This document shows, one piece after another, positions 49,462-51,018 of a DNA stretch of 64,000 nt; within the stretch, counting starts at the first letter, position 1, and every line of letters starts with the position of its first letter. The notes under the pieces were generated by a model. The model was given only the letters and a program-made list of their open reading frames with translations, searched no databases and was not told the DNA's origin. The stretch is from Niabella ginsenosidivorans (GTDB lineage: Bacteria > Bacteroidota > Bacteroidia > Chitinophagales > Chitinophagaceae): contig NZ_CP015772.1 in the NCBI RefSeq assembly GCF_001654455.1, positions 4,278,001-4,342,000 on the forward strand, in the 5' to 3' direction. The position numbers and the translations under genes were made by a program.

Positions 49462-50469
49462 CTAAATTAAATTATTTGCAGCCAGGTACTCGGCAATCTG
49501 TACGGCGTTGGTAGCGGCACCTTTACGCAGGTTATCACTTACCACCCACAGGTTCAGGGCATTGGGCTGCGATTCATCCCTGCGGATCCTCCCTACGAAT
49601 ACATCATCTTTTTCATGGGCATCCATGGGCATCGGATATTTGTGATTTGGCAGGTCATCTACCACAATAACACCGGGTGCTGTCTCCAGCAGATGGCGTA
49701 CTTCAGCCAGGTCAAAATCGTTCTCAAATTCAATATTTACTGCTTCGCTATGGCCACCCATTACCGGAATACGAACGGTTGTAGCAGTAACCCGGATAGA
49801 GTCATCCCGCATGATCTTTTTGGTTTCGTTCACCATTTTCATTTCTTCCTTGGTATACCCGTTATCCAAAAAGACATCGATCTGGGGAATCACGTTCAGA
49901 TCAATAGGATACTTATAGGCCATTTCATAGCTGCTCTCTTTTCCGGCTACTTCCTTATGACGCTCACCTTTTAACTGCTCAACCGCTTTAACGCCCGTGC
50001 CTGTAACACTCTGATAAGTGGCTACCACTATGCGTTTGATCTTATAGGCTTTATGCAAGGGGGCCAGTGCCACTACCATCTGAATGGTGGAGCAGTTGGG
50101 ATTGGCAATAATTTTGTCATTGCTGGTCAGCACATCTGCATTGATCTCCGGAACCACCAGCGGAACCTTCGGATCCATGCGCCATGCAGAAGAGTTGTCA
50201 ACAACAGTAATGCCCGCCGCTGCAAATTTGGGCGCCCATTCTGTTGAGGTGCTTCCACCAGCAGAGAACAACGCCACATCCGGCTTGGCGGCAATAGCCG
50301 CTTCCATACCTGCCACTTTATATTTTTTACCCCTGAATTCTACCTCCCTGCCAACGCTTTTTGCCGAAGCAACGGGTATTAGTTCAGATACCGGAAAATT
50401 CCTTTCGGATAAAACCTGCAACATTTTGGTGCCTACCAAACCTGTGGCGCCTACAACGGCTACTTTCAT
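49462..50469 (-). CDS. asd: Aspartate-semialdehyde dehydrogenase
   Basis: A 335-residue NADPH enzyme reducing aspartyl phosphate to aspartate semialdehyde, the branch point to lysine/diaminopimelate, threonine, isoleucine and methionine. The nucleotide site is VAVVGATGLVGTKM, the catalytic thiol is C126 in IANPNCSTIQMVVALAP, and VPVMGGHSEAV-type residues supply the active His region (RIPVMGGHSEAVNIEFE). Substrate-binding residues are in YEMAYKYPIDLNVIPQID. It is first in a minus-strand series with uppS and bamA. It is preceded by a leader peptide and attenuator (50495-50605), so expression is probably set by threonine and lysine supply. Confidence 0.95.
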   Translation of the reverse strand: MKVAVVGATGLVGTKMLQVLSERNFPVSELIPVASAKSVGREVEFRGKKYKVAGMEAAIAAKPDVALFSAGGSTSTEWAPKFAAAGITVVDNSSAWRMDPKVPLVVPEINADVLTSNDKIIANPNCSTIQMVVALAPLHKAYKIKRIVVATYQSVTGTGVKAVEQLKGERHKEVAGKESSYEMAYKYPIDLNVIPQIDVFLDNGYTKEEMKMVNETKKIMRDDSIRVTATTVRIPVMGGHSEAVNIEFENDFDLAEVRHLLETAPGVIVVDDLPNHKYPMPMDAHEKDDVFVGRIRRDESQPNALNLWVVSDNLRKGAATNAVQIAEYLAANNLI

Positions 50470-50494: not shown

Positions 50495-50524
50495 AAAAAA
50501 AAGCCTCCCGTATTTACGGAAGGC
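50495..50524 (-). terminator. Attenuator terminator in the asd leader
   Basis: On the minus strand, GCCTTCCGT-AAAT-ACGGGAGGC forms a 9-bp stem (one G-U pair) at 50503-50524, followed by eight T residues (50502 to 50495). It lies between the leader peptide and asd, 26 bp before the asd ATG. The position makes it a regulatory terminator; it cannot be the terminator of an upstream gene, since the asd promoter is upstream of it. Confidence 0.88.
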
Positions 50525-50590
50525 CTGTTAAAAATTTATGTTAAAGACACAAACACCACTGACCTTCCATCAGGGACACTTTTTAGTGGT
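50516..50590 (-). promoter_or_regulatory. Mutually exclusive antiterminator and leader-pairing segments of the asd attenuator
   Basis: RNA segments, read on the minus strand. Segment 1, ACCACU (50585-50590), lies in the leader peptide's Thr6-Thr7 codons and pairs with AGUGGU (50555-50560); flanking ACAAA and UUUGU extend that stem. Segment 2, AUGGAAGGUC (50561-50570), starts at the last base of the leader stop codon and pairs over 10 bp with GGCCUUCCGU (50516-50525). The latter is the 5' arm of the terminator, so segment-2 pairing prevents termination. A ribosome at the leader stop codon would cover segment 2; one stalled on the Thr/Lys codons would leave it free. Confidence 0.8.
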
Positions 50591-50605
50591 TTTTGTATGC
50601 TTCAT
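50570..50605 (-). CDS. asd leader peptide MKHTKTTKKCP
   Basis: An 11-codon frame ATG AAG CAT ACA AAA ACC ACT AAA AAG TGT CCC then TGA. Three of eleven residues are Thr and four are Lys, both end products of the pathway that asd feeds. All are clustered where ribosome stalling would control the adjacent RNA structure. The preceding bases are A-rich, as usual for Bacteroidota starts, and the ATG is about 14 nt from the predicted transcription start. The sequence itself is seen directly; its translation and sensing role are inferred. Confidence 0.78.
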   Translation of the reverse strand: MKHTKTTKKCP

Positions 50606-50622
50606 TTTACTTGCCATCTGAA

Positions 50623-50654
50623 CAAAAATAGATACAGAACAGATATCATCCAAA
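50623..50654 (-). promoter_or_regulatory. Promoter of the asd leader transcript
   Basis: On the minus strand, TTTG (50651-50654) and TATTTTTG (50623-50630) match the Bacteroidota -33 and -7 consensus elements (TTTG and TAnnTTTG) with a 20-bp spacer. Transcription would start near 50619, just upstream of the leader ATG at 50605. Confidence 0.7.
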
Positions 50655-50712: not shown

Positions 50713-51018
50713 TTACCTGCTTTTTACAGGAACTGCCATTCTTTTTTTGCTAAAGTAGCCCGTTTTATTTATCAGGAACCACATAATGGTAAACGTTGGA
50801 ATAAAATCTGTTCCCGGCAGCGCTTCTTCTATAAAATTAAACAGCCCCCCTGTTATGCCTTTTTTGCCACCAAATGTAAATGCAAAGATCAGACCCGAAA
50901 CAGGCGCCCACAGAATATCGCCCAACTCTCCCAGCCCCGGAACAGCATAGGTCAAACAGCCGATCGCATCCATAACAAGACAAAACAAGAGCGAAGGTGA
51001 TTTTTGCGTTTTATCCAT
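50713..51018 (-). CDS. Small membrane protein, unrecognised
   Basis: A 101-residue protein with two or three hydrophobic segments (SPSLLFCLVMDAIGCLTYAVPGLGELGDILWAPVSGLIFAFTFGG and a weaker FIPTFTIMWFLI), Gly-rich between. It has a basic C-terminus (KKRMAVPVKSR). The GELGDILWAPVSGLIF block resembles small DUF-type Bacteroidota membrane proteins, but I cannot name a family securely. It sits 83 bp upstream of the asd promoter on the same strand. Confidence 0.7.
   Translation of the reverse strand: MDKTQKSPSLLFCLVMDAIGCLTYAVPGLGELGDILWAPVSGLIFAFTFGGKKGITGGLFNFIEEALPGTDFIPTFTIMWFLINKTGYFSKKRMAVPVKSR

Follow-up and report, generated by a model that had tools for sequence, protein, structure and literature searches.

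A putative ribosome-mediated attenuator with a lysine-rich leader frame upstream of asd in Niabella ginsenosidivorans and other Bacteroidia

The stretch of Niabella ginsenosidivorans DNA analyzed here, referred to as the window, is 64,000 nucleotides long. On its minus strand the gene asd, the only match to aspartate-semialdehyde dehydrogenase in this genome, is preceded by a compact arrangement in which TTTG-N20-TATTTTTG is followed by ATGGCAAGTAAAATGAAGCATACAAAAACCACTAAAAAGTGTCCCTGA and then by the arms of an antiterminator and a terminator (Table 1). The TTTG tetranucleotide corresponds to the -33 element of the Bacteroidota primary-sigma promoter. The promoter, the short leader frame and the terminator with its eight T residues had been proposed by an initial annotation and all three were found on this strand.

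Asd is followed on the same strand by uppS (49399-48617), recognized by NCBIfam, and by a 910-aa frame (48440-45708) named by eye as outer-membrane-assembly-like; an inverted repeat, AGTTCATGG/CCATGAACT, is contained in the 62 nt separating asd from uppS together with the beginning of uppS. If asd, uppS and the 910-aa frame were co-transcribed, an attenuator upstream of asd would reach envelope genes too. On the other side, upstream of the leader, a same-strand frame of 101 aa (50713-51018) returned no NCBIfam match.

Table 1. Features of the asd leader region, in window positions
Feature	Positions	Strand	Basis or remark
-33 element, TTTG	50651..50654	-	sequence
-7 box TATTTTTG (TAnnTTTG)	50623..50630	-	sequence; 20 nt 3' of TTTG
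putative leader frame MASKMKHTKTTKKCP	50570..50617	-	sequence and relatives; stop TGA 50572-50570
tandem Lys codons AAA AAG (KK)	50579..50584	-	slightly 5' of the antiterminator arm
region 1, protector hairpin arm	50585..50602	-	folding, partner-swap test; partner 50560-50543
region 2', pairs with region 1	50543..50560	-	folding
region 2, antiterminator 5' arm	50561..50570	-	folding, partner-swap test; starts inside the stop codon
region 3, antiterminator 3' arm	50516..50525	-	50524-50516 doubles as terminator 5' arm
region 4, terminator 3' arm	50503..50511	-	folding
terminator T tract, eight T	50495..50502	-	sequence
asd, aspartate-semialdehyde dehydrogenase, presumed controlled gene	49462..50469	-	NCBIfam TIGR01296, NF011456

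Regions 2 and 3 form an antiterminator of 10 base pairs, two of which are G-U. Folding calculations returned -21.8 kcal/mol (z -4.7) for the stretch of the 2:3 hairpin and -35.3 kcal/mol (z -3.3) for the entire leader, values equaled by none of 200 shuffled sequences in either case, in agreement with the antiterminator of the initial annotation. A stem previously described inside the leader (50590-50585 with 50560-50555) does exist, but only as part of the longer, interrupted helix formed by regions 1 and 2'. The intrinsic terminator, which an attenuator requires ahead of its structural gene, is formed by the last nine positions of region 3 with region 4; in a 10-kb stretch for which 14 terminator-like sites were listed, it heads the ranking.

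A leader frame and a terminator precede asd in all 17 Niabella genomes. With a covariance model of the element, R1, and a threshold of E<=1e-5, 178 of the 294 sampled genomes of the family (67 of 101 genera) were positive and the other 116 genomes and 34 genera were not, these being first matches, tied to asd solely at the loci fetched. Such a recurrence exceeds what chance would give. Among 104 fetched element loci, tblastn identified asd in 96 and dapA in five, and the other three are short stretches directly upstream of dapA genes. At the 99 loci that allowed a measurement, the terminator lay 17-234 nt 5' of the gene, on the same strand. The script retrieved the element within 300 nt at 24 of 80 named loci, to which L023, with the element farther upstream (seen as L138), is to be added; no element occurred within the upstream stretch read at the Mucilaginibacter, Pedobacter, Sphingobacterium, Spirosoma and Dyadobacter loci. 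A class-wide search with R1 gave matches at E<=0.001 in 40 of 395 genomes; loci were returned for 24 matches from outside the family, and these comprised 13 asd, two hisG and two thrA loci and seven without a recognizable feature.

The 142 leaders collected were reduced to 124 unique peptide/gene pairs, after exclusion of L279 and of L282, which equals L281; L122 is without a frame. The 124 consist of 105 family asd leaders, a set which includes named loci whose family label was taken unchecked, 11 asd leaders from other families and eight dapA leaders. In L279, an asd leader from another family, an A run is shorter by one base and the frame is therefore shifted, owing either to decay or to a sequencing error. 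At L034 and L142 the word AAGTGAGTGACACAAC, and at L143 AAAAGTGAGTGACACAAC, lies between the attenuator and asd, and looks like a dispersed repeat.

The leader peptide had originally been read as MKHTKTTKKCP, with four Lys and three Thr codons, starting at the inner ATG 50605. The frame is real, but this start is probably four codons late, since the spacing of the promoter box and the very short 5' UTR favor ATG 50617, which is also backed by the leader frames of relatives; the window peptide would then have 15 residues. A TAnnTTTG-like box, with three spellings allowed, ends 4-11 nt 5' of the leader ATG in 103 of the 124 unique leaders, whereas shuffled upstream sequence places the box 2-12 nt away in 2.8% of cases. 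In F. psychrophilum the TAnnTTTG box spans -12 to -5 and leaderless mRNAs represent 5.5% of the mRNAs measured (PMC9723704). Transferred to our sequences, the same box position (PMC9723704) implies a 5' UTR of 0-7 nt in the 103 leaders and of 1 nt in the window, where transcription would start at 50618, so that the leader mRNA is predicted to be nearly leaderless.

The alternative pairings were evaluated on a set of distinct sequences. Out of 97 loci the script flagged 44, three of which (L020, L046, L068) were removed by eye as devoid of a Lys-rich frame and one (L003) because it duplicates L094; the remaining 40 sequences were aligned. RNAalifold predicted the terminator, with two-sided changes in seven of its nine pairs. 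Cognate 2:3, 3:4 and 1:2' pairing outscored swapped partners in 2000 of 2000 shuffles with the 40 sequences and in 1000 of 1000 with the 124, statistics which ignore relatedness among the sequences. The arms co-vary: other families pair GGAAAGG with CCTTTCC and L013 pairs GGGGCT with GGCCCC, and an antiterminator that excludes the terminator is thus preserved by compensatory change. Region 1 pairs with the stretch immediately 3' of the antiterminator arm, and the 1:2' and 2:3 helices cross. The comparison with relatives therefore agreed with the initial annotation, both in the frame and terminator kept before asd throughout Niabella and in the covariation of the arms.

In every one of the 124 unique leaders the stop codon falls between -6 and +13 nt of where region 2 starts, region 2 having been sought within a range of -30 to +22 around the stop codon, and one single frame fits in 124 of 124, with region 2 positions derived from the chosen frame and so not independent of it. 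Stop positions form two clusters, 50 before region 2 and 74 inside it, and in both a terminating ribosome would sit over region 2. In 112 of the 124 leaders, the distance from the beginning of the last preceding Lys codon to region 2 is 11-20 nt.

Ribosome positions were modeled with a footprint of 30 nt on a transcript truncated after arm 3. Placing the last upstream Lys codon in the A site gave a 2:3 pairing probability above 0.5 in 112 of 124 leaders, and placing the stop codon there did so in 0 of 124; on the truncated RNA, therefore, a stall frees the antiterminator arm and termination of translation masks it, as expected for an attenuator. At equilibrium, the full-length RNA retained a terminator probability above 0.5 in 107 of 124 leaders even under the Lys stall, and the complete switch was obtained in just 17; the antiterminator hairpin is as stable as the terminator, or more so, in only 61 of 124. 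The model thus needs co-transcriptional folding. For the window, the equilibrium probability of the antiterminator was 0.99 with the ribosome at the KMKHTK Lys codons, 0.10 and 0.28 at KK and 0.00 at the stop codon. Without a ribosome, the probability of 2:3 pairing exceeded 0.5 in 88 of 124 leaders; the protector hairpin is therefore weak, and an untranslated leader would partly read through. As a stall at any upstream codon antiterminates, folding does not single out lysine.

The amino acid was therefore sought in the codons. Each of the 124 unique leaders contains at least two Lys codons, as selected by a frame-picking score that rewarded Lys and Thr. In the 116 unique asd leaders Lys accounts for 27% of the frame-0 codons, against 8% and 11% in the two shifted frames, so that a short frame, predicted to be translated, is rich in codons for a product of the pathway; the values for Thr are 13% against 3% and 11%. 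Tandem KK occurs in 94 of the 105 family asd leaders, in 10 of the 11 from other families and in 6 of the 8 dapA leaders. A core pattern, which itself restricts the letters per position, could be aligned in 89 of the 124 leaders, with Lys at core positions 1, 4, 7 and 8 in 83, 85, 85 and 79 of the 89.

The initial annotation had considered the leader as reading two end products alike, so that shortage of either Thr or Lys would raise asd, both branches using the Asd product. The lysine half of this proposal stood in 124 of 124 leaders, while an equal role of threonine is supported only in part, and we judge a dual Thr/Lys attenuator unlikely. Thr is certainly frequent close to the window: it provides three of the 15 codons of the window leader and a mean of 2.4 per leader in the 105 family asd leaders, being missing from only four, although R1 was trained mostly on KHTK leaders and Thr-free leaders are under-sampled. 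Thr stalls also antiterminate on the truncated RNA, the best Thr codon exceeding 0.5 in 109 of 110 leaders. A dual leader should nevertheless keep both codons everywhere, and Thr is absent from 9 of the 11 asd leaders of other families (for instance MMIKKIKCAKKLFR, MKMICSKKCMKKPVR and MKMILKNKKHGKKRFHSGKVN), which average 0.18 Thr and 5.2 Lys and each carry at least four Lys. Moreover, Thr in frame hardly differs from one of the shifted frames, unlike Lys. Core position 6 is Thr in only 54 of 89 leaders, otherwise Ile, Asn, Val or others, and the core Thr 3, mostly ACA, sits in the paired CATACAAA word, so that RNA pairing could explain its conservation. The Thr-free leaders rule out a signal made up of threonine alone; within the window's family, the leader may still respond to Thr in a subsidiary way.

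Further evidence came from related leaders at other genes. Two R1 matches at E<=1e-5 were obtained in 16 of the 294 family genomes, and a second copy of the element was confirmed upstream of dapA, the first step of the lysine-only branch, in nine genomes of five genera. The eight unique dapA leaders, such as MQLIKKHTKRVKKHSVYREG, have a mean of 4.6 Lys and 1.25 Thr codons, Thr being scarcer here as well. A dapA search over 117 genomes found the element at 5 of the 30 dapA loci returned, and in the window's genome R1 had no match at E<=0.1 besides asd, hence none at dapA. Example loci were confirmed by NCBIfam (dapA, TIGR00674; hisG, TIGR00070).

Upstream of the bifunctional thrA of the window's genome lies a frame ending GTTTTIITTPCGL with a Thr/Ile run (L206, before C1 910461), and such a frame occurs at 13 of 13 Niabella loci with an intact thrA frame (L199-L211). 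It is likely to represent a separate, putative threonine attenuator, and its presence in the same genome speaks against the dual reading of the asd leader. At hisG (L229) the window's genome carries the His-run frame MKILVHIHHHFADLPK followed by a terminator, and His-run frames with terminators were also found at hisG in five more family genomes (L153, L154, L157, L160, L162) and in two of other families (L283, L295), all seven being detected weakly by the asd-trained R1. The five family cases were recovered among 17 weak R1 matches fetched (L152-L168; E 4.6e-4 to 0.0066), one of them called by NCBIfam and the others by eye. The other 12 have the appearance of common terminators or of frames unrelated to the element, and in L159 the frame ending MKNKHTKTGKKS belongs to the 3' end of a longer frame. 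The gene lysC was also considered as a target, and the 330 nt upstream contained no terminator at 15 of 15 monofunctional aspartokinase loci (L213, L214, L216-L228). Leader codons thus follow the pathway, His at hisG, Thr/Ile at thrA and Lys at asd and dapA, which favors lysine as the main signal.

The same correspondence bears on a more general switch, in which the KHTK sequence, through nascent-peptide arrest, or slow near-leaderless initiation would set read-through independently of lysine. Such a switch would agree with the conservation of KHTK in most family leaders and with antitermination by a stall at any upstream codon; we regard it as improbable, as leaders of other families without KHTK retain Lys (MMIKKIKCAKKLFR, MKMICSKKCMKKPVR), favoring codon content, and the hisG and thrA leaders carry pathway-matched codons. 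A plain terminator of the upstream gene with a chance frame and no regulation would account for a strong terminator between a same-strand frame and asd, but is hardly credible given that frame, antiterminator and terminator co-occur with the promoter box over many genera and that the antiterminator is kept by compensatory changes.

Ribosome-mediated attenuation of asd, as the initial annotation had claimed, is strongly supported by the conserved frame, the covarying exclusive helices and a stop codon so positioned that a ribosome terminating there would mask the antiterminator arm, and charged tRNA-Lys is probably its main signal. From the parts, their conservation and covariation, the codon content and the geometry we infer a transcription start, translation of the leader, stalling and a response to lysine, which would be connected as follows. 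RNA polymerase would start about 1 base 5' of the leader ATG, with a ribosome following and reading MASKMKHTKTTKKCP. When lysyl-tRNA is short, the ribosome would halt at the Lys codons, occupying region 1 and leaving region 2 open to pair with region 3 ahead of the synthesis of region 4; the terminator would be blocked and asd transcribed. When lysine is ample, the ribosome would reach the stop codon, its leading edge would mask region 2, and 3:4 pairing would end transcription before asd. On balance we lean slightly towards a broader reading, a lysine attenuator of undescribed kind: a near-leaderless Lys-codon leader at asd in many Bacteroidia, copied to dapA in some, would constitute a two-gene lysine regulon run by stalling with neither riboswitch nor repressor, and leaders of the window's own family may integrate several amino acids derived from aspartate at once, namely Lys, Thr and possibly also Met and Ile.

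This proposal names lysine as the amino acid to test at the asd leader, makes a defined element available in over a hundred of the sampled genomes, and predicts control, in a Bacteroidota group, of a gene feeding cell-wall DAP, lysine, threonine and methionine. The His, Thr/Ile and Lys leader frames within one genome provide a natural test set for codon-specific attenuation. Bacteroidota are said to initiate translation without Shine-Dalgarno sites (PMC9723704), and the very short 5' UTR expected here raises the question of how leader translation begins.

As for known systems, an Rfam scan of the window gave 0 matches, and Rfam leader families had no match at E<=1 in L001, L130, L132 and L276, with none at the gathering cut-off; a hit to RF01407 overlapping the element in L132 (22.2 bits, cut-off 55, E 0.99) looks like chance. 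The lysine riboswitch (L box) shares with the asd leader the control of lysine-pathway genes but binds free lysine directly, and its covariance model found no match in the window or in ten loci scanned.

The nearest precedent is SEP5 of Sinorhizobium meliloti, a short frame that contains six Thr codons and three Lys codons and lies within the 5' UTR of an "aspartate dehydrogenase" gene; it is suggested to encode a leader peptide and is conserved in Sinorhizobium only (PMC10117765). Thr dominates in SEP5 and Lys in the asd leader, and the SEP5 account, in the portion consulted, presents neither a terminator nor an alternative structure, unlike the asd leader (PMC10117765). In Flavobacterium, clues for leader-peptide attenuation at amino-acid operons include conserved 5' elements at hisG and pheA; "asd" does not appear in the main text of that study, whose attenuation account, as far as consulted, does not name lysine (PMC9723704). 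Leader peptides were known in Proteobacteria, Actinobacteria and, newly, Firmicutes according to Naville and Gautheret in 2010 (PMC2965389). Searches of the open-licence literature returned no lysine attenuator and no Bacteroidota asd leader.

The thr operon attenuator (thrL, RF00506 Thr_leader) acts on an adjacent branch of the same pathway and shares with the asd element a short leader frame and exclusive antiterminator and terminator. It carries Thr/Ile runs at thrA, whereas the asd and dapA elements carry Lys and do not match RF00506; two Bacteroidia thrA leaders scored 40.5 and 36.5 bits against that model, below its cut-off of 55. In E. coli trpL a four-region logic is combined with tandem control codons, WW, slightly 5' of the switching arm, and the asd leader likewise has four regions and a tandem KK. 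The two differ in that the trpL helices share one arm, while region 1 of the asd leader pairs just 3' of the antiterminator arm and the helices cross. Overall, the element is very probably a real and widespread attenuator working by a known mechanism, with an apparently new pair of amino acid and target.
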